Origin: Proteiniphilum propionicum | Lineage (GTDB): Bacteria > Bacteroidota > Bacteroidia > Bacteroidales > Dysgonomonadaceae | Length of the DNA: 64,000 nt | NCBI RefSeq assembly: GCF_022267555.1 | Contig: NZ_CP073586.1 | Span: 1,240,001-1,304,000, forward strand | Direction of reading: 5' to 3' | Shown here: in pieces, positions 15,838 to 29,800 of the stretch | Numbering within the stretch: the first letter of the stretch is position 1 | Layout: every line of letters starts with the position of its first letter | The notes under the pieces: model-generated | The model's input: only the letters and a program-made list of their open reading frames with translations | Told to the model about the DNA's origin: nothing | Database searches by the model: none | Translations under genes and position numbers: made by a program

Positions 15838-15910
15838 GCGGCAATAGCTCAGTCGGTAGAGCATTAGCTTCCCAAGCTGAGGGTCGCGAGTTCGAGTCTC
15901 GTTTGCCGCT
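15838..15910 (+). tRNA. tRNA-Gly (anticodon CCC), integration target
   Basis: A 73-nt cloverleaf: acceptor GCGGCAA/TTGCCGC, discriminator T, D-arm AGCTCAGTCGGTAGAGC, anticodon stem TTAGC/GCTGA around TTCCCAA (anticodon CCC), and T-arm GTTCGAGTC. Its last 45 nt are the left copy of the 46-bp att duplication, so the integrative element rebuilt the tRNA 3' end on entry. A hairpin terminator follows at 15922. Confidence 0.95.
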
Positions 15911-15911
15911 C
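15866..15911 (+). repeat. attL: left 46-bp att repeat of the integrative element
   Basis: The 46 bp from AGCTTCCCAAGC to GCCGCTC recur at 29755-29800 with one mismatch (G at 15896, A at 29785). This copy lies within and completes tRNA-Gly. tRNA 3' ends are standard targets of tyrosine integrases. Confidence 0.93.
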
Positions 15912-15960: not shown

Positions 15961-15981
15961 ATAACAAACAAATAACAAACA
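15961..15981 (+). repeat. Left arm-type repeat of the element
   Basis: A 21-nt block of two (A)TAACAAACA units that is identical to 29610-29630, in the same orientation. It lies 50 bp inside attL. Such paired arm sites near each end are typical of integrase/excisionase binding in Bacteroidetes elements. Confidence 0.6.
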
Positions 15982-19634: not shown

Positions 19635-19988
19635 ATGAACACGATAAAAAGGGGAGGGAGACCCGCCAAGAAACTGGGAGAGAAACGCAGGTACACCGTC
19701 AGCGTGAAACTCGACACGAGGGAGTATTTCTCGCTAAGGACAAAGGCAAACAGTGCGGGGATCAGCACGAGTGAATTTATCCGGCAGTCCATATCTGGGA
19801 GCATGATCCGTCCACGGATGACACCCGAAATGAACGACCATATCCGCAAACTGTCAGGGATGGGAAATAACCTGAACCAGATCGCGAGGAGAGCGAATGC
19901 CGAGGGGTACGCCAATGCAAGGGGAGAATACCTCCGTCTGGCAGTCAAGATCGACGACCTGATAGAAGCTTTACGCAATGATGGCTAA
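19635..19988 (+). CDS. MobC-like relaxosome protein
   Basis: A 117-residue basic protein. The N-terminus (KRGGRPAKKLGEKRRYTVSVKLDTREYFSLRTKANSAGISTSEFIRQSI) is a ribbon-helix-helix domain, and the C-terminal MGNNLNQIARRAN motif is the classic MobC/relaxosome segment. It helps the relaxase melt oriT. The start of the relaxase overlaps its last codons (11 bp), showing translational coupling. Confidence 0.9.
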   Translation: MNTIKRGGRPAKKLGEKRRYTVSVKLDTREYFSLRTKANSAGISTSEFIRQSISGSMIRPRMTPEMNDHIRKLSGMGNNLNQIARRANAEGYANARGEYLRLAVKIDDLIEALRNDG

Positions 19989-20895
19989 GATCACACAGGG
20001 AAGTTCTTTTAAAGGTGTGGTGAAATACGTCATCGATGAAAGGAAAGATATGCAGATACTCGCAGCGGACGGGTTACGCCTGAAAAACCTGAATACCGTC
20101 ATCGACGGCTTTGTAACGCAGGCAGGCATGAACGGCAGGGTATCGAAACCGGTCGGACATATATCCCTCGATTTTTCAGCACAGGATAAGGACAAGATAA
20201 CTAACCAAATGATGGTGAAGATCGCACACGATTATATGCAGCGCATGGGAATCACCGGCACGCAATATATCATTGCCAGGCATTTCGACAAGGAACACCC
20301 GCACATCCATCTTGTCTTTAATCGGGTTGACAATAACGGCAAGACCATATCCGACAGTAACGACCGTTACCGGAGCGAGAAGATCTGCAAGGAATTGACG
20401 CACAAGTACGGATTATACTATTCCACGGGCAAGGAGAATGTGAAGCAACACCGCCTGCGTGAGCCGGACAAGACCAGATACGAGATATACGAAGCCCTTA
20501 AAACTTCCGTCCCGAGGTGCAGGGACTGGAAACAATTGATAAGAGAACTTGAAAGATCAGGAATCAGGACGGAATTCAAGACCAAAGGCAATACCACCAC
20601 CGTGGAGGGAGTAAAATTCAGAAAGGGAGGGTACACGTTCAACGGCTCGAAAGTGGACAGGATGTTCAGTTACTCGAAAATCGACTACCAATTAAAACAG
20701 AACGTCCGACAGTCCATGCGGCAGGATCAGGCACAATCGATATCGGCAACGGTACACAACAGTACAGAATCCATAGTATCGGGATTGGGAGGACTGTTCG
20801 ACATCCGGCCTGCAAGCGGGCATGATGACGATCAGGCATACCTGTACCAGCAACCGAAAAAAAAGAAGAAACGCAGGTACGGCCGGCAGATGTAG
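19978..20895 (+). CDS. Relaxase/mobilization nuclease (MOBP-type)
   Basis: A 305-residue protein (start 19978, or 19981 for the second Met). The relaxase histidine triad motif is HFDKEHPHIHLVFNRVD (about residues 97-113), preceded by KPVGHISLDFS. It nicks oriT and leads the strand during mobilization. The C-terminal part is basic and short compared with conjugative relaxases (QQPKKKKKRRYGRQM). It overlaps the MobC gene. No coupling or mating-pair genes are nearby, so transfer would need a helper. Confidence 0.92.
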   Translation: MMAKITQGSSFKGVVKYVIDERKDMQILAADGLRLKNLNTVIDGFVTQAGMNGRVSKPVGHISLDFSAQDKDKITNQMMVKIAHDYMQRMGITGTQYIIARHFDKEHPHIHLVFNRVDNNGKTISDSNDRYRSEKICKELTHKYGLYYSTGKENVKQHRLREPDKTRYEIYEALKTSVPRCRDWKQLIRELERSGIRTEFKTKGNTTTVEGVKFRKGGYTFNGSKVDRMFSYSKIDYQLKQNVRQSMRQDQAQSISATVHNSTESIVSGLGGLFDIRPASGHDDDQAYLYQQPKKKKKRRYGRQM

Positions 20896-21584: not shown

Positions 21585-21631
21585 AACACACTTTTGTGTG
21601 TTGTGTACACTATTTTTCTTCACGACCTTTG
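21585..21631 (+). promoter_or_regulatory. ThiF-gene promoter with 18-bp palindromic box
   Basis: The perfect palindromic arms AACACAC (21585-21591) and GTGTGTT (21596-21602) flank TTTT. The -7-like box GACCTTTG (21624-21631; one mismatch to TAnnTTTG) begins exactly 27 bp after the G at 21596. The same 27-bp spacing is seen at the acyltransferase and lipoprotein promoters, so this is probably an activator site. Confidence 0.7.
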
Positions 21632-21649
21632 TTGCAAAAATAAGACAAT

Positions 21650-22408
21650 ATGGAAGAAAGATACAGTAGGAACCGAATTTATGTCCGCCCGGAAGAACAG
21701 CAACTCCTCAAGCATTTCCGCATCCTGCTGGGTGGTGCAGGTATCGGCAGTATTATAGCCGAGTGCGCATTGCGGTTCGGATTTGAAACCATTACCATCG
21801 TGGATGGCGACGTGGTGGAAGAATCAAACCTCAACCGCCAGAATTACCGGATGCAGGATATAGGTAAACCCAAAGCCGAAGCTTTGAAAGAGCATTTATT
21901 GAGTATCAATCCAAATGCTGACATTACGGCAATAAATACATTCATCGATGCCGGCAATGTGGAAGAACTGGTTAAAGAACAAGATGTTGCCATAAACGCA
22001 TTGGATTTCCAGTCGGATATCCCGTTTGTTTTTGATGAATGGTGCCAGAAGTATAATGTCCCGGTCATACACCCCTATAATCTCGGTTGGGGCGGATTGG
22101 CATTTGTGGTGGAGCCTACAGGCCCGCAACTGAAAGACTTTACCGATAAATGGGAGAACTTTGAAGTACAGCTTATAGAGCGCATTGTGAATTACTTTAA
22201 ACTCTGGGTACAACCCAAGCCGTGGATTGAAAAAATCATCACCCAATACAAAAATGAAAAAAGTATACTTCCGCCACCGCAACTTCCTATCGCTTCGTGG
22301 ATAGCCGCCGGATTGTGCACCAACCTGTTGTTTTGCATTGCCACGGGGCAAAAGACAAAACGCTATCCAAAATTTTATCTGTCATCCATTATAGATGACA
22401 GGAATTAA
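21650..22408 (+). CDS. ThiF/HesA/MoeB-type E1-like adenylyltransferase
   Basis: A 252-residue protein with the full E1 adenylation core: glycine-rich GGAGIGS (28-34), VDGDVVEESNLNRQ (51-64) and GKPKAEAL (72-79). ThiF-fold enzymes use ATP to adenylate a C-terminal carboxylate, usually of a ubiquitin-like sulfur carrier, sometimes of a peptide (MccB). It lacks the paired CxxC zinc motifs of MoeB/ThiF, and no ubiquitin-like partner gene is next to it, so its substrate is open. It has its own promoter with the palindrome shared by the LuxR/GNAT genes, so it belongs to that regulon. Length is typical for stand-alone ThiF proteins. Confidence 0.85.
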   Translation: MEERYSRNRIYVRPEEQQLLKHFRILLGGAGIGSIIAECALRFGFETITIVDGDVVEESNLNRQNYRMQDIGKPKAEALKEHLLSINPNADITAINTFIDAGNVEELVKEQDVAINALDFQSDIPFVFDEWCQKYNVPVIHPYNLGWGGLAFVVEPTGPQLKDFTDKWENFEVQLIERIVNYFKLWVQPKPWIEKIITQYKNEKSILPPPQLPIASWIAAGLCTNLLFCIATGQKTKRYPKFYLSSIIDDRN

Positions 22409-22462
22409 ACAGGGGAGACAAGTAAAGGTATTGTAAAGCTTCGAGCTCCACTTTGAATTATA

Positions 22463-23221
22463 CTATATCAGCCTGTGGTGAATGGCAAAACCAAGGGCTT
22501 CGGTTATGTTACCCACGTTTAATTTCTCAAACAGTAACCGTTTATACCCCTTGATGGTATCGACCGACTTATGGATCTGTTCAGAAATTTCGTTCATCGT
22601 GCAGCCTTGTGCGGATAACCGGAGCACCTCTTTTTCATAATCCTTCAGTTCTACACCCGCATATTTGACCCATTTTTTATTTTCCGGATGATACCTCCAG
22701 CGCGAATTACAACCCTGACGGGAAATCTCGATATTACCGGCTTTCGTCTGTGAGGAGAGGGATACCGAGCATAACGCCAACCATATCCTGCCGTCCCTTG
22801 TCAAATGTAGCGGTGTGATTTCATGGTGGACAAGCATAGCCTTGCCTGACGGTTGTTTCATATGGAAATCGTAACCAAGCGTATATTCCAGCCGGTTCAC
22901 AGGCGGAACAGACTCCGAGAACAAAAAACCTGCCCGGTTGATTTCCAGTAGAAGTGGCAGGTCTGCATCCGTCACACGTTCAAGATAAAAATCGTATCCC
23001 ATATCCCTGACCTTTCCGGCAGGCATACCACAAAGGAATAAAGGGTTTTCAGACACATACAGGAAGTTTTTCCTGAAATAGTCAATGACGTAAATACTTA
23101 CATAAGTAGTTCGTGAGAACGCATCCAAAAACTGAATATACCTTTCCATGGGTGCATAGTCCTCATCAGGGACAAAAAGAATTTCATTCTCCTGAATGAA
23201 AAAATCCTCTTTTTTAGCCAT
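22463..23221 (-). CDS. LuxR-type transcriptional regulator with PAS-like N-terminal domain
   Basis: A 252-residue protein. The C-terminal ~60 residues form a GerE/LuxR helix-turn-helix (KDYEKEVLRLSAQGCTMNEISEQIHKSVDTIKGYKRLLFEKLNVGNITEALGFA). The N-terminal ~150 residues are not a phosphoreceiver (no acidic pocket) and look like a PAS or ligand-binding fold (SIYVIDYFRKNFLYVSENP…LERVTDADLPLLLEINRA). It is divergent from the acyltransferase gene, with 130 bp between starts carrying the palindromic box. It is the natural candidate for the protein binding all boxes in the module. Its ligand, if any, is unknown. Confidence 0.85.
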   Translation of the reverse strand: MAKKEDFFIQENEILFVPDEDYAPMERYIQFLDAFSRTTYVSIYVIDYFRKNFLYVSENPLFLCGMPAGKVRDMGYDFYLERVTDADLPLLLEINRAGFLFSESVPPVNRLEYTLGYDFHMKQPSGKAMLVHHEITPLHLTRDGRIWLALCSVSLSSQTKAGNIEISRQGCNSRWRYHPENKKWVKYAGVELKDYEKEVLRLSAQGCTMNEISEQIHKSVDTIKGYKRLLFEKLNVGNITEALGFAIHHRLI

Positions 23222-23272
23222 ACAACACTCCTTTTAATAAAAACAGACGGATCTTACATCCGGAACTTAAGA

Positions 23273-23319
23273 AACACACTTTTGTGTCATTCCCTTTTGC
23301 CCCGACAACTGTACTTTTG
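23273..23319 (+). promoter_or_regulatory. Acyltransferase promoter with palindromic box
   Basis: Box AACACAC-TTTT-GTGTCAT (23273-23290; right arm partly degenerate). The -7 box TACTTTTG (23312-23319) matches TAnnTTTG exactly and begins 27 bp after the G at 23284. The start codon is 33 bp downstream. The region is shared with the divergent LuxR gene, so one site may also control the regulator. Confidence 0.72.
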
Positions 23320-23351
23320 TGTCCGTAAATATAAAAAAATAAATCTAAATA

Positions 23352-23999
23352 ATGGATAAATTCATTACATTTTACGACAAATATACCATCTGGCAATTGT
23401 CGGAGGATAGTTTGCATGAACTTGCCGGATTTGTGGTGCGGGAAAACTACAAGCATCATTCCAATAGCCGGCCCAATATTCATTTCGATGCAGAAGTCGA
23501 AGCAGTATATCGGGAAGAAGTGCGTTATTTTAACCATTCACGGATATTTGTAGCAAAAAATAGTGAGAATAACATTATAGGAGCCATCCGCCTGATGCTG
23601 TGGGATGGGAGAGAAACACTGCCCATACAGTCTTTATTCGGCATTCAATGCCTAAACGATATTTCACCCGATGATAGTTGTTCTGCAATTTGGCATATAG
23701 GACGATTGGCAGTCAATACCGATATCGGCCGTCATGGATTGTTACTGTTCAAATCGCTGTTGCTCTATGCCATGTACCCGATTTGCAACAGAAAGAAAGG
23801 GATTGTGTTTGCAGAATGTGATAGCAAACTGCTGCGAACAATGAAACTAATGGGTATTCGGGTGCATAGCCTTGGCAATGGGATCGAATACCTCGGTTCG
23901 GAAACGATCCCCGTTTATTCCACATATGATGACCTTGTCGGTTTTTTTCGTGAGAACCAATCTTTCTACGGTATCAATCAAGCCAGTGTAGTTGCTTGA
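23352..23999 (+). CDS. GNAT-fold acyltransferase resembling LuxI/FeeM N-acyl synthases
   Basis: A 215-residue protein. It has a GNAT core: strand plus AIRLMLWDG (78-86), the cofactor-strand motif IWHIGRLAV (113-121) followed by the pyrophosphate loop GRHGLL (126-131), and a C-terminal half with AECDSKLLRTMKLMGI (154-169). The long N-terminal region and the IGRLAV/AE…K…MG pattern resemble N-acyl amino acid synthases (FeeM) and LuxI-type autoinducer synthases more than small acetyltransferases. The neighbour is a divergent LuxR-type regulator. The product would be an acylated small molecule, but neither acyl donor nor acceptor can be read from sequence. A plain N-acetyltransferase remains possible. 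Confidence 0.7.
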   Translation: MDKFITFYDKYTIWQLSEDSLHELAGFVVRENYKHHSNSRPNIHFDAEVEAVYREEVRYFNHSRIFVAKNSENNIIGAIRLMLWDGRETLPIQSLFGIQCLNDISPDDSCSAIWHIGRLAVNTDIGRHGLLLFKSLLLYAMYPICNRKKGIVFAECDSKLLRTMKLMGIRVHSLGNGIEYLGSETIPVYSTYDDLVGFFRENQSFYGINQASVVA

Positions 24000-24100
24000 A
24001 ATACAATTGTAAGGAACAACCAAGTGTCATTACGACGGCTTTTTTGGATCAGAATTGAAAAATATTCCGTAAAACCAAATGTTTTTTGCCCAAAGGAAAA

Positions 24101-24185
24101 AACACACAAAAGTGTGTATTTCGATAGTGTATGCCAAAAACACACTTTTGTGTATAGTAAATGGAAAAACAAGGGTATAATTTTG
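24101..24185 (+). promoter_or_regulatory. Lipoprotein-gene promoter with two palindromic boxes
   Basis: Box 1 AACACAC-AAAA-GTGTGTA (24101-24118) and box 2 AACACAC-TTTT-GTGTATA (24139-24156), centres 38 bp apart. The -7 box TAATTTTG (24178-24185) matches TAnnTTTG and begins 27 bp after the G at 24150. The 5' leader to the ATG at 24339 is about 150 nt and holds no clear gene. Confidence 0.7.
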
Positions 24186-24338: not shown

Positions 24339-24875
24339 ATGAGAACAATTCTTTTTACATTGCTGGCATTAACATGCATGCTACTATCCTCTTGTAATAA
24401 TGAGTTGGATGAACAACAAGTAGCGATCACCGATGAAACTAATACAGTTTTTAGGCAATCGGATGGAATTCTTATGTTTGATAATGAAGCAGCATTTTTA
24501 GAAGCTGTCGAAAAAGTGAGAAATAATGAAGTTGGAACTGCCTCTTTTACCCGTTCTGCTTCCGGGGAAGAATTTATTTCTTTATTTAGAGAATTTGATC
24601 AGGCTATGACTGAAGCAGACGATTATTACCAACGTGAGGGAGGATATGAAGAATTTAAGGTGAAATTCCCCAATCTGTATTATCCTGAATACGAAGAAGA
24701 TTATGCAGCGTTCCTGCCAGTAAGTGACGAGGCTATTGCAAAGCTATTAAATCAGCAAGGTAAAGTTATAATAGCTGGAAAAGAGATAGATATGCGTGAT
24801 GTTTTTTCTTATGAAAAAATTCAAGAATTAGGATTAGGTATGCCCGAAAATGTAAATGTTTATAATACTCCCTAA
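24339..24875 (+). CDS. Exported lipoprotein of unknown function
   Basis: A 178-residue acidic protein with a lipoprotein signal (RTILFTLLALTCMLLSSC, Cys at 19). The mature part begins with a short linker and contains FDNEAAFLEAVEKV and an acidic/Tyr-rich segment (PNLYYPEYEEDYAAFLP). No family was recognised. It is expressed from a promoter carrying two copies of the palindrome found at the ThiF and acyltransferase genes, so it is a probable effector or product of that regulon. The IS3-type element starts only about 4 bp after the stop codon, so downstream genes have been separated from it. Confidence 0.7.
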   Translation: MRTILFTLLALTCMLLSSCNNELDEQQVAITDETNTVFRQSDGILMFDNEAAFLEAVEKVRNNEVGTASFTRSASGEEFISLFREFDQAMTEADDYYQREGGYEEFKVKFPNLYYPEYEEDYAAFLPVSDEAIAKLLNQQGKVIIAGKEIDMRDVFSYEKIQELGLGMPENVNVYNTP

Positions 24876-24922
24876 AAATCATACCACTGGTTAAGCTTAA
24901 TAAAAATGATTAAATTTGACCA

Positions 24923-25237
24923 ATGATTAAAATGATGAAAACAAGGAAGAAACACAGTGCAGCTTTCAAGGCACAGGTTGCGATAGAGGCAATCAAGGAA
25001 GCGGAAACACTTAGCGAGCTGGCCAAGCGGTTCGATGTGCATCCACAAATGATCTCCAACTGGAAACGGGAGTTCCTATCCCGAGGAGCAGAGATATTCT
25101 CAACCAAGGCTCCCGACGAGGAAGCCGCCAAACGGGAGAAAGAATTGTATGAGAAAATCGGCCGTCTGGAAGTAGAGGTGGATTTTTGCAAGAGGGCCTC
25201 AGAACAATTGGGGATACTGAAGTCCTCAAAGAAATAG
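24923..25237 (+). CDS. IS3-family transposase OrfA
   Basis: A 104-residue protein with a helix-turn-helix (KHSAAFKAQVAIEAIKEAETLSELAKRFDVHPQMISNWKREFL) followed by a leucine-zipper-like helix (KRELYEKIGRLEVEVDFCKRAS region). It binds the element ends. It overlaps OrfB by 52 bp in another frame, so OrfAB is expected to arise by ribosomal frameshifting, although a strong A-rich slippery run is not obvious. An internal Met at 24935 is an alternative start. Confidence 0.9.
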   Translation: MIKMMKTRKKHSAAFKAQVAIEAIKEAETLSELAKRFDVHPQMISNWKREFLSRGAEIFSTKAPDEEAAKREKELYEKIGRLEVEVDFCKRASEQLGILKSSKK

Positions 25238-26043
25238 TATCCCCGAGAAATGATTTGAGTCAACGACGCCAGTGTGAACTACTCGGATTGAATCGCAGCA
25301 TGCAGTATTACAAGCCTGCCGGGGAGGATCCCGCAAACCTTGAACTGATGCGCCTGATGGACGAAGAATACATGGAACATCCTACAAAAGGCGTTTTGGG
25401 GATGGTTGATTTCCTGCGTGCATTGGGTATCCTGACAGGCCCAAAACGTGTCCGCCGATTGCTTCGTAAAATGGGCATCATGGCCATTTATCCGAAACGG
25501 AACCTGAGTAAGTTGGGGTTGACCAAATACATTCAGCCGTACAGACTTAGAGGTCTTGAGGTCACGCACTCGAATCATGTATGGTGTATCGATATCACGT
25601 ACATACCAATGGCAAAAGGATTCCTTTACTTGACGGCTATCATTGATGTATATAGCCGGTATATTGTTGGCTGGGACATTCACAATACGCTGGATGCCGA
25701 AAACAGCCTGAATGTACTTCGTAAAGCAATCACCGTGCATGGCAAGCCGGAGATTGTAAACTCTGACCAGGGATCTCAATTTACGTGTCCAGGATGGATA
25801 GCGTATCTTGAAAGCCAAGAGATCACCATCAGCATGGATGGGAAAGGCAGGGCACTTGACAACGTCTGGATAGAACGCTTCTGGCATACACTCAAACAAG
25901 AATATGTCTATATTTGTCCAGCCGTGAACGGCAAGATGCTGCGAAAGGGGTTGACCAGGTTCATCAACTATTACAACAACCGGCGACAGCATCAAAGCCT
26001 TGATAGAAAAACGCCCTTTTCCTGGTATGAGTATGCAGCCTGA
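25186..26043 (+). CDS. IS3-family transposase OrfB (rve integrase)
   Basis: A 285-residue DDE recombinase. The catalytic acids are visible in VWCIDITYIP (first D), IVNSDQGSQF (second D) and WIERFWHTLKQEY (E), with the usual N-terminal HTH_21 segment (HPTKGVLGMVDFLRALGILTGPKRVRRLL) and C-terminal YYNNRRQHQSL. The frame is intact, so the element may be active. It interrupts the cargo end of the integrative element, between the lipoprotein gene and the small exported proteins. Confidence 0.93.
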   Translation: MQEGLRTIGDTEVLKEIVSPRNDLSQRRQCELLGLNRSMQYYKPAGEDPANLELMRLMDEEYMEHPTKGVLGMVDFLRALGILTGPKRVRRLLRKMGIMAIYPKRNLSKLGLTKYIQPYRLRGLEVTHSNHVWCIDITYIPMAKGFLYLTAIIDVYSRYIVGWDIHNTLDAENSLNVLRKAITVHGKPEIVNSDQGSQFTCPGWIAYLESQEITISMDGKGRALDNVWIERFWHTLKQEYVYICPAVNGKMLRKGLTRFINYYNNRRQHQSLDRKTPFSWYEYAA

Positions 26044-26244
26044 TTCGTTTCCATTGCAAACAAAGGTAGTGCCTGCCCCGGAACCTGTCAAGGCTGTGAC
26101 AAGCGACCTGAAGGTCGGCCTTGACAGAACCCGTTCCAGGCACAAAGAGTGGTTTACAATGACAACGAACTAAACTTAAAAACGAGACCTAGTGGTCTGA
26201 CAAATGGGGAGTAAAATAAAATTTGGAAACCCGGGCCAAGCCAA

Positions 26245-26448
26245 GTGAAAGTTTTTGATAGTGGTGTTGAATTTGAAGTTGAATACAATTCAAATTTAGG
26301 ACTGGTTGGAAGTGCCCTTAAAACTTTAGCAAAAAATGTCAAGAATAAAGCTCCTAATGTGGAATCTGCATTTGTTTACGCATATACAACAACTGATTCC
26401 GGCGGTGAAGTAAAAGGTATGATTCTTAAAAAGACAAAAGACAAGTAA
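26245..26448 (+). CDS. Short hypothetical protein, probably a 3' gene remnant
   Basis: A 67-residue frame beginning with GTG at 26245, 45 bp after the IS3 end. The sequence (VEFEVEYNSNLGLVGSALKTLAKNVK…AFVYAYTTTDSGGEVKGM) is protein-like, and the frame is open a further ~10 codons upstream without a Met. It is most simply the tail of a gene whose front was lost near the IS insertion. No family was recognised. A GC-rich hairpin follows. Confidence 0.45.
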   Translation: MKVFDSGVEFEVEYNSNLGLVGSALKTLAKNVKNKAPNVESAFVYAYTTTDSGGEVKGMILKKTKDK

Positions 26449-28144: not shown

Positions 28145-29566
28145 TCATCCGGTTACAGACAATAGACTTATCGTATTATATTTTTTGTTTGGGTTTAATA
28201 GTTTAGAATTCACCTCTCTCCTTTTTTTGGGGGATGGATTATTATAGCCGGCGGTTACATTCTTTCCAGTACTATGGCCAACCATTTGTTTAACGAAAAT
28301 CTCACTAATATACATTTCGCTTGTAAGATGAGTTACGTAGCTGTTACGGGTATAGGCGGTCGATAAATTCCGGTCTATCCCTAATTGTGCTGCTATTACT
28401 TTTAATGAATTATTTATTGGGTTTAATGCCAGTTGAATAGCGTCTTTTATCTTTCTTTCGTTTTGATCTACTCGTTCGATGCCGTTAAGAAATGGAAAGA
28501 TATATCCATTCTGTTCTTTATTGCCGTGTCGGTTAATTATTTCTACCATTGGAGGTAGTAGCGGAGCGCAAATAGGCTCTGGATTTTTTTTCTTTTTTGT
28601 ATCTCTGGTTTTCTTACGATGAAATACAATCTCTTGGGATGCTCCGTCGATGTCTTTGTATTGCAACCTGCATAGATCACCGAAATTTAGTCCGTTACAA
28701 TAGAACATGAATATGAAAATATCCCTTGCAACCATCAATCCTTGATTGTCAGTCTCAAAATCCTCTATTTTCCAAATGTCCTCAATGTCTAAAGCGATAG
28801 ATTTTCTCCCACCTTCCGGAATAGAATATTTATTCTTGCCCTCTCCAAATGGATAGCGAGTTCCGCTTAAATAAGGGTCTTCTCCATTGTTTATTATTGC
28901 CCTAAGTGTTCTCATATAAATCCCGATAGTAGCGTATTCTATACCGGTCGCACTCCAAAAGTCTTCGCAGTCAGATAAAAATTTCACCGTGATATCGTCA
29001 AATTTAATATCAGCGATGACGTTTAAAACATCCTTACCTTTTGTCTTATGCTTTTTACTTACACATTCTTCAATAAATAGTTGTTTGGCTATTTTACTTT
29101 TGATTTTTCTGTAATACTGAAAACGTATAAGAGCGTTTAATGTGGTTCTGTATATTGTTGCATTCCCGACCTTGAAGGTGTTGTTTAAAGTGTTTATTTT
29201 GGCCGTAAACGCATCATTTACGGTTAAGATATCCGACTTGCCTAATTTGTGATCGAGTGCTGCAAAAGAGAAATTGTCTGCAGTCTCTTTAACTGCGGGT
29301 TTAAGAATATCATCAAAATATTTTTGTATGTCGTCTTTATGCTCTCTTAGATGTGCCGCTTTAGTCTTAAAATTAAAATCAGCTTCCTCTGAAGCTTCAA
29401 ATAATTCCCAGTCCTCACGATCTAATACTTTTCCTGTAGAGTAGTAGTCGCTATCTCTTTTATATGTTACACGCCACCGTAGTGGGCATTCATTTTCGGG
29501 ATTTTTATTCCTTATATCTCGAACAAGTTTAACGGTTATACCGTTATTGGAATAGTAGAATTTCAT
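28145..29566 (-). CDS. Tyrosine recombinase/integrase of the element
   Basis: A 473-residue integrase with an N-terminal arm-binding domain, a SAM-like core-binding domain (residues ~110-220) and the catalytic domain. Visible catalytic pieces are box II YTRNSYVTH (Arg), MVGHSTGKNVTAGYNNP (His and the nucleophilic Tyr). The box I Arg position reads GLNFGDLC, with Asn instead of Arg, as in several Bacteroidetes integrases such as IntDOT that lack this Arg. It transcribes inward from the right end, 190 bp from attR, and is expected to recombine the 46-bp tRNA-Gly att sites. Confidence 0.92.
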   Translation of the reverse strand: MKFYYSNNGITVKLVRDIRNKNPENECPLRWRVTYKRDSDYYSTGKVLDREDWELFEASEEADFNFKTKAAHLREHKDDIQKYFDDILKPAVKETADNFSFAALDHKLGKSDILTVNDAFTAKINTLNNTFKVGNATIYRTTLNALIRFQYYRKIKSKIAKQLFIEECVSKKHKTKGKDVLNVIADIKFDDITVKFLSDCEDFWSATGIEYATIGIYMRTLRAIINNGEDPYLSGTRYPFGEGKNKYSIPEGGRKSIALDIEDIWKIEDFETDNQGLMVARDIFIFMFYCNGLNFGDLCRLQYKDIDGASQEIVFHRKKTRDTKKKKNPEPICAPLLPPMVEIINRHGNKEQNGYIFPFLNGIERVDQNERKIKDAIQLALNPINNSLKVIAAQLGIDRNLSTAYTRNSYVTHLTSEMYISEIFVKQMVGHSTGKNVTAGYNNPSPKKRREVNSKLLNPNKKYNTISLLSVTG

Positions 29567-29597: not shown

Positions 29598-29630
29598 TAA
29601 CAAACAATCATAACAAACAAATAACAAACA
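29598..29630 (+). repeat. Right arm-type repeats of the element
   Basis: TAACAAAC units recur three times; 29610-29630 is identical to the 21-nt block 15961-15981 near the left end and has the same orientation. They lie between the integrase start and attR, as expected for arm sites. Confidence 0.6.
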
Positions 29631-29754: not shown

Positions 29755-29800
29755 AGCTTCCCAAGCTGAGGGTCGCGAGTTCGAATCTCGTTTGCCGCTC
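29755..29800 (+). repeat. attR: right 46-bp att repeat
   Basis: A copy of the tRNA-Gly 3' end (AGCTTCCCAAGC to GCCGCTC) with a single change from attL. It does not form a tRNA because the 5' half is missing. It marks the right boundary of the integrative element. Confidence 0.93.

Follow-up and report, generated by a model that had tools for sequence, protein, structure and literature searches.

A 64,000-nucleotide stretch of the genome of Proteiniphilum propionicum (contig NZ_CP073586.1, positions 1,240,001 to 1,304,000; this whole stretch is hereafter the window) contains a compact module in which two putative biosynthetic genes flank an oppositely oriented regulatory gene. The first, thiF (21650..22408, plus strand), encodes a ThiF/E1-like adenylyltransferase of 252 amino acids (PF00899, E = 1.4e-35). 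The second, luxR (22463..23221, minus strand), encodes a 252-residue LuxR-type regulator with a PAS-like N-terminal fold, an arginine at position 228 and a GerE domain at residues 196-243 (PF00196, E = 1.8e-9), in agreement with the original prediction that a LuxR-type gene lies inside the module. The third (23352..23999, plus strand) encodes a GNAT-fold, FeeM-like N-acyltransferase of 215 amino acids (PF21926, E = 4.7e-4, below cut-off). An output gene for a lipoprotein, with a lipobox recognised by eye, follows at 24339..24875 (plus strand) and is truncated in the window, retaining the first 174 residues of a 356-residue protein that is intact in the homologous locus L034.

Four palindromes had been proposed at 21585, 23273, 24101 and 24139. 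All were present, with 0, 2, 1 and 2 mismatches, respectively, to AACACACWWWWGTGTGTT, and four matches at three or fewer mismatches occurred in 0 of 100 shuffled windows. The first, AACACACTTTTGTGTGTT (21585..21602, 12-bp core at 21588-21599), is a putative operator of the thiF promoter; the second (23273..23290, core 23276-23287) lies between the divergent luxR and acyltransferase genes; the other two, 24101..24118 and 24139..24156 (core 24142-24153), are the upstream and downstream members of a tandem pair 38 bp apart, an arrangement recurrent among homologous loci. None of these boxes is assigned a strand. Three promoters are boxed, upstream of thiF, the acyltransferase gene and the lipoprotein gene, and each has a candidate -7 box on the plus strand: GACCTTTG (21624..21631), TACTTTTG (23312..23319) and TAATTTTG (24178..24185). 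The Bacteroidetes -7 consensus is TAnnTTTG, according to the available part of PMC7366714. The constant 27 bp previously counted from the G of the box core proved right; re-measured from the end of the core (GTGT) to the last G of TTTG, the distance is 32 nucleotides at all three promoters. With TAnnTTTG taken to end around -5, the box would be centred near -42. The strict pattern ACACWWWWGTGT-N28-TTTG occurs exactly three times in the 3.9-Mb host genome, always inside the module, and the reversed control gave 0. Two further sites with 2 mismatches, at 1646937 and 2382355 of the host genome, fall outside this strict pattern, and no wider host regulon is claimed.

The thiF/luxR/acyltransferase module recurs across the class, with proteins about 33-81% identical to those of the window. 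When the acyltransferase was used as query, 4 of 393 genomes of the order matched with the single sequence; matches were also obtained in 9 of 101 genomes of the family and 6 of 395 of the class, in 4 of 121, 2 of 15 and 7 of 118 genomes of three other families, and in 7 of 123, 6 of 159 and 5 of 393 genomes in further searches; these groups overlap and the counts are not additive, the host genome being included in the 4/393, 9/101, 6/395 and 5/393 figures, and a few weak matches (e.g. genomes G1012, G1048 and G055) being taken in. The gene order thiF(+)-luxR(-)-acyltransferase(+) recurs among the loci; thiF lies downstream of the acyltransferase in L026, L028 and L065, and was not found within the fetched stretch of L023, L058, L061 and L067. 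LuxR was essentially full length in 20 of 20 loci, all retained for having it, while the acyltransferase was broken or incomplete in five (L027, L028, L029, L070 and L071) and thiF was broken in L068; some broken or missing synthase genes may reflect draft-assembly errors or contig ends. Left out of the counts were the near-identical copies L024, L030-L034, L011 and L012, the contig-end fragment L069, and L060 and L115, which have no LuxR. The acyltransferase-ThiF pairs of the latter two (L060, 6450-7923; L115, 6776-8153), with no LuxR in the stretch and no upstream box in the scans made, are possibly a separately regulated branch of the same enzymes.

The fixed distance was re-assessed in these homologues. 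Among 56 boxes from 20 representative loci, read on the acyltransferase strand, a TTTG ended exactly 32 nucleotides away in 28; the runner-up distance of 35 nucleotides (8 boxes) came mostly from a TTTG within the second of two tandem boxes. Such tandems, with boxes 37-39 bp apart, were present in 12 of the 20 loci and made up 15 pairs, several of which precede the gene downstream of the acyltransferase. With TTTG or TTTA allowed, 22 of 40 regions upstream of acyltransferase or thiF genes in 23 loci carried a box at 32 nucleotides (12 of the 22 acyltransferase regions and 10 of the 18 thiF regions; one of the 22 boxes, in L059, has TTTA), and every other spacing from 16 to 55 was found in at most 3 regions. 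Across 200 dinucleotide shuffles the mean was 0.005 and the maximum 1. The conserved core of the box across the family comprises 12 bp, ACnC-N4-GnGT, the outer bases showing no conservation. Of the 23 representative loci, 20 (all but L068, L112 and L114) have a box between luxR and the divergent acyltransferase gene.

Loci differ in the third base of the half-site (ACAC, ACCC or ACTC), which is mostly constant inside each locus. Residue 228 of LuxR, in the recognition helix, ranked first of 252 columns in mutual information with half-site class once this was normalised by entropy; the high-entropy columns 189 and 201 exceed it in raw mutual information. Over 25 loci, A was found in 78 of 90 half-sites at the 18 Arg loci, in 2 of 32 at the six Lys loci and in 2 of 4 at the single Gln locus, from a box list that excludes four chance-looking off-promoter matches (L023 9195, L029 7452, L070 5775 and L114 13085) and predates the comparison of L083 and L084. 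The observed Arg/Lys difference was reached in 0 of 100000 label permutations, which ignored relatedness. In a tree of the N-terminal domain, the five Lys loci included fell by parsimony into two origins (L026; L023/L025/L029/L071), each with a changed box. Residue 228 presumably corresponds to the base-contacting Arg210 of TraR. Since the half-site tracks residue 228 of the neighbouring LuxR, it is very probable that the box is bound by the regulator of the module itself. The idea of a universal one-to-one Arg/Lys code was rejected in view of mixed flavobacterial half-sites (L057, L059 and L112-L114), hybrid boxes in the Gln locus L067 and the half-mixed L065; L113 is a Lys locus beyond the five in the tree and has mixed half-sites, so that the rule is weaker in flavobacteria. 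Sequence comparison shows the putative operator, the constancy of its position and its agreement with the adjacent regulator, and a regulon with paired operator and regulator can be proposed with high confidence. The spacing across homologues and the covariation of half-site and adjacent LuxR bear out the earlier contention that the spacing exceeds chance and defines a regulon; the PAS-like fold of the regulator, the plausible signal-making enzyme pair and the differing box specificities go beyond that reading.

A DNA pattern free of protein information was also run against the 101 genomes of the family. It matched 14 of them, and the reversed control gave 3 matches in 3 genomes. Six of the 14 have 3-4 matches and carry the window's element; in two of the eight single-match genomes the box lies beside module genes (L084 in G467 and L083 in G448), and the remaining six resemble background, judging by the initial residues of the neighbouring proteins. 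L083 contains a ThiF fragment 76% identical to the window's. In L084 (294-2314) LuxR is intact, shares 73% identity with that of the window and has Arg at 228, and a spaced ACAC box precedes a small lipoprotein gene; no acyltransferase was recognised among the open reading frames of this 3-kb stretch, which is possibly a listener-only module. The three acyltransferase-positive genomes missed by the pattern (G414, G424 and G453) have boxes of the ACCC or ACTC type. In a plasmid record of Riemerella anatipestifer, both LuxR paralogues have the Arg and an ACAC box at 32 nucleotides, one box preceding thiF and the other a DUF3887/outer-membrane operon. A short Cys-rich frame noticed by eye on this plasmid (L119, 10500-10905) follows a box-like site at the place expected for the acyltransferase, and possibly encodes the precursor of a ribosomally synthesised and post-translationally modified peptide (RiPP).

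Pfam searches of the regulator at E values up to 0.1 found GerE alone, with no autoinducer-binding domain. Its AlphaFold2 model, with a mean predicted local distance difference test (pLDDT) score of 91.8, resembled proteins combining PAS and helix-turn-helix domains: in Foldseek, 3clo, an uncharacterised protein of Bacteroides thetaiotaomicron, ranked first, followed by VqmA with its autoinducer 3,5-dimethylpyrazin-2-ol (DPO; E = 5e-8). Going by the predicted model, the nearest functionally characterised match is therefore the quorum receptor VqmA.

As for the enzymes, the acyltransferase model adopts a GNAT fold (pLDDT 88.0), and no LuxI autoinducer synthase match was obtained in Pfam at E values up to 0.1. 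The nearest solved structures to ThiF are 9egb, 9egc and 9egd (E = 5e-93 over residues 1-247 of 252), so that the family has already been studied by others; a search of open-access literature turned up no paper that names these entries. ThiF retains what we take to be the nucleotide-binding and adenylation motifs. Assignment to the PRTRC-system ThiF proteins was rejected, TIGR03736 scoring 28.4 bits, far under its cut-off of 144.75. According to the available parts of PMC10404671 and PMC12856293, an N-acyltransferase plus a ThiF-like enzyme yields acyl-oxazolones in the OxzAB, TyzACB and TrzAS pathways, in all of which a flavin oxidase also takes part; N-acyl oxazolones resemble acyl-homoserine lactones, and their role is called unresolved in the accessible text of PMC12856293. 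A nitroreductase-family protein encoded beside apparent ABC transporter genes in L070 (7353-8225) is the sole nearby candidate flavin oxidase among the homologous loci. By its known definition the module is not a complete oxazolone pathway; that the two enzymes make a cyclised N-acyl amino acid is somewhat better than an even bet.

The candidate outputs differ by locus: some loci have a lipoprotein plus an outer-membrane barrel, others CarboxypepD_reg/OMP_b-brl_3 barrels, and others RiPP genes next to the module. Inspection of N-termini by eye placed lipoproteins beside or under boxes in the window, L023, L025, L031, L032, L034 and L062, and L066 has a relative of the window lipoprotein (35%). 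Outer-membrane barrels are so placed in L026, L057 and L071 (by Pfam), in L061 (by similarity to L057) and in L029 (N-terminal domain only). Clear RiPP genes are found in L026 (radical SAM maturase and C39 transporter), L057 (LanB and LanC) and L058 (NHLP precursor and C39 transporter); L063 and L064 are weaker cases that share VKOR/C39 proteins, L063 with a sub-threshold LanC-like match. In the window the lipoprotein gene is cut by transposase genes at 24864..26215 (plus strand; bounds by alignment to L032 and L034), presumably of IS3 type, and about 3.1 kb found in L034 is gone from 24339-26215. A 67-residue open reading frame at 26245, considered as the lost C-terminus of the lipoprotein, was rejected.

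The module sits on an island of about 13.9 kb inserted in tRNA-Gly(ccc), as expected from the earlier claim of a Bacteroidetes mobile element. One attachment repeat is the 3' part of the tRNA gene (15866..15911, plus strand) and the other marks the right end (29755..29800, plus strand); by eye they differ at one mismatch. Left of the module lie relaxase (MobA/VirD2-type, 19978..20895, plus strand, PF03432, E = 2.6e-38), MobC/NikA and primase genes, and a tyrosine recombinase is encoded near the right end (28145..29566, minus strand, PF13102, E = 2.1e-9). An identical 21-base repeat, ATAACAAACAAATAACAAACA, just inside the element ends at 15961-15981 and 29610-29630, possibly represents recombinase arm sites. 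Five other stretches, from two genera, have almost the same module (98.8-100% nucleotide identity) on backbones with 93.5-100% identity. In L023, about 1.9 kb of backbone matches that of the window at 84-85% identity, but the module is a different one of ACCC type, with a LuxR about 50% identical; the module thus behaves as a swappable cassette. Assembly G445 contains two modules of unlike half-site class, L034 (ACAC) and L023 (ACCC), although it is a draft in which a mixed population is possible. Spread on a mobile element, together with two half-site classes in this draft assembly, suggests insulated specificity groups. No match was obtained in plasmid records searched with the acyltransferase, and no relative was found in viral contigs.

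We propose, with a probability of roughly 0.55, that the module is a self-contained, mobile and swappable autoinduction circuit with specificity groups. The acyltransferase would N-acylate an amino acid, as its family suggests, and ThiF would adenylate the carboxylate and cyclise the product, most likely to an acyl-oxazolone-type ring by analogy with OxzA/OxzB, TyzA/TyzB and TrzA/TrzS. The PAS-like domain of LuxR would bind this cyclised product in a VqmA-like manner; that the regulator senses what the enzymes make is an evenly balanced proposition. The LuxR dimer would then bind the ACnC-N4-GnGT palindromes, whose centres would lie some 42 bp before the start, and activate, rather than repress, thiF, the acyltransferase gene and one or more output genes, while variants of half-site and recognition helix would set the specificity groups. 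A broader formulation, offered tentatively and at somewhat less than even odds, is that of a new class of quorum sensing in Bacteroidetes, in which acyl-oxazolone-like or other cyclised N-acyl amino acid autoinducers are made by acyltransferase and ThiF and read by a PAS-LuxR receptor, and in which a swappable cassette on mobile elements, with insulated groups (ACAC, ACCC and ACTC), controls surface lipoproteins, outer-membrane barrels and RiPP production. If true, this would give oxazolone lipids a physiological role.

A number of observations weigh against the proposed circuit. The acyltransferase scored 20.4 bits against PF21926 (FeeM; cut-off 27) and 27.8 against TIGR03694, the PEP-CTERM acyltransferase profile (cut-off 111.95), and its best fold matches are ordinary GNATs, the LuxI homologue TofI (3p2h) ranking 27th (E = 1.5e-7). 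Of 19 genomes, just one (L070) has a flavin oxidase (PF00881) on the module's contig at a distance of up to 10 kb, some modules lying on short contigs, so that a saturated or different ring is to be expected. A ThiF gene beside an N-acyl amino acid synthase does not necessarily imply an oxazolone: according to the available part of PMC12479983, N-acyl tyrosine producers with ThiF genes, those of stieleriacine, kyonggic acid and thalassotalic acid, showed none. ThiF-like enzymes are also reported to modify RiPP peptides. Whole-chain superposition of LuxR was poor, with template modelling (TM) scores of 0.3-0.5 (0.29-0.36 for VqmA by query length), so that the structural match is one by domain. 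Regarding specificity, strongly supported branches alone force only one Lys origin, the Lys loci are few (six, four of them one clade), the flavobacterial Lys locus L113 has A in 2 of 6 half-sites, and several Arg loci have mixed half-sites. Finally, the expectation that homologous modules would carry the box at the fixed distance held for the 22 upstream regions described above and failed in the other 18. Among these are thiF genes within operons (L026, L028 and L065), the acyltransferase of L061, whose region was clipped by the start estimate and whose box has TATATTTA after it at the right place, and boxes with one mismatched half or other degeneracy (e.g. L057, L066 and thiF of L059); the remainder falls into none of these groups.

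The strongest rival is a pathway-specific activator without self-sensing: LuxR would bind the boxes and switch on a small-molecule pathway and surface proteins, its PAS-like domain would sense another cue such as redox, heme or a host or diet compound, and the enzymes' product would be an end product, or ThiF would act on a peptide. PAS domains are generally known to bind many ligands, the evidence for a regulon fits this account equally well, the fetched stretches of L060 and L115 have a GNAT-ThiF pair but no LuxR, and RiPP genes adjoin some modules. Set against this are the divergent placement of the regulator beside the synthase, with a box between them in most representative loci, the identity of the nearest characterised full-length structural match as an autoinducer receptor, and the several luxR-intact loci, chosen for luxR, in which the synthase is broken or missing, as if they listened without signalling. 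Such an activator is a serious contender, held at clearly less than even odds.

Autorepression, in which LuxR would repress and the box overlap the -33 region, would suit a box that ends near -33, where it could block polymerase, and that is located between divergent genes. The promoters speak otherwise: by eye, the window thiF promoter has no TTTG at the usual -33 spacing, and of the ten thiF promoters with an exact box seven have GAnnTTTG and three TAnnTTTG, a sign of weak promoters that depend on an activator; moreover, contact between activator and polymerase generally goes with a strict distance. Autorepression is accordingly judged improbable. Chance, or conservation of the palindromes merely as recent copies, is barely credible: L030-L034 are indeed 98.8-100% identical over the module and so not independent, but they were excluded from the counts. 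The other LuxR proteins share 42-65% identity with that of the window, and across loci the spacing stays the same while the sequence of the box changes.

In the autoinduction circuit proposed here, two enzymes that probably cyclise an N-acyl amino acid are tied to a receptor-like regulator of their own and to putative operators. It appears to be a form of bacterial self-sensing not described before; no description of a LuxR-acyltransferase-ThiF module was found in the open-access literature, subscription journals and preprints lying mostly outside this coverage. Its parts have known counterparts. The ThiF-type protein of 9egb, 9egc and 9egd belongs to the same enzyme family as the window ThiF. 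The acyl-oxazolone pathways OxzAB, TyzACB and TrzAS likewise encode an N-acyltransferase and a ThiF-like enzyme together, whereas the window module has a dedicated LuxR regulator and operators, and the available parts of PMC10404671 and PMC12856293 make no mention of such a regulator. The best structural match to the window LuxR, 3clo, is 21% identical to it and is listed as a putative regulator. The closest characterised fold is that of VqmA-DPO, of Vibrio cholerae and a phage, also a receptor with PAS and LuxR-type helix-turn-helix domains. VqmA is not known to be encoded beside its signal enzyme, and DPO requires Tdh, whereas in the window module two candidate synthase genes belong to the proposed regulon. 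With LuxI/LuxR systems the module shares an adjacent candidate synthase and GerE-type regulator, the GNAT fold of that synthase, a putative palindromic operator near -42 and a synthase within the proposed regulon. By contrast, its receptor is PAS-like and without an autoinducer-binding Pfam match, its synthase is without a LuxI Pfam match, and it has an extra ThiF enzyme and a Bacteroidetes -7 promoter. The module is not a member of the LuxI/LuxR family; read as autoinduction, it is a variant that brings known domain types into a new combination.

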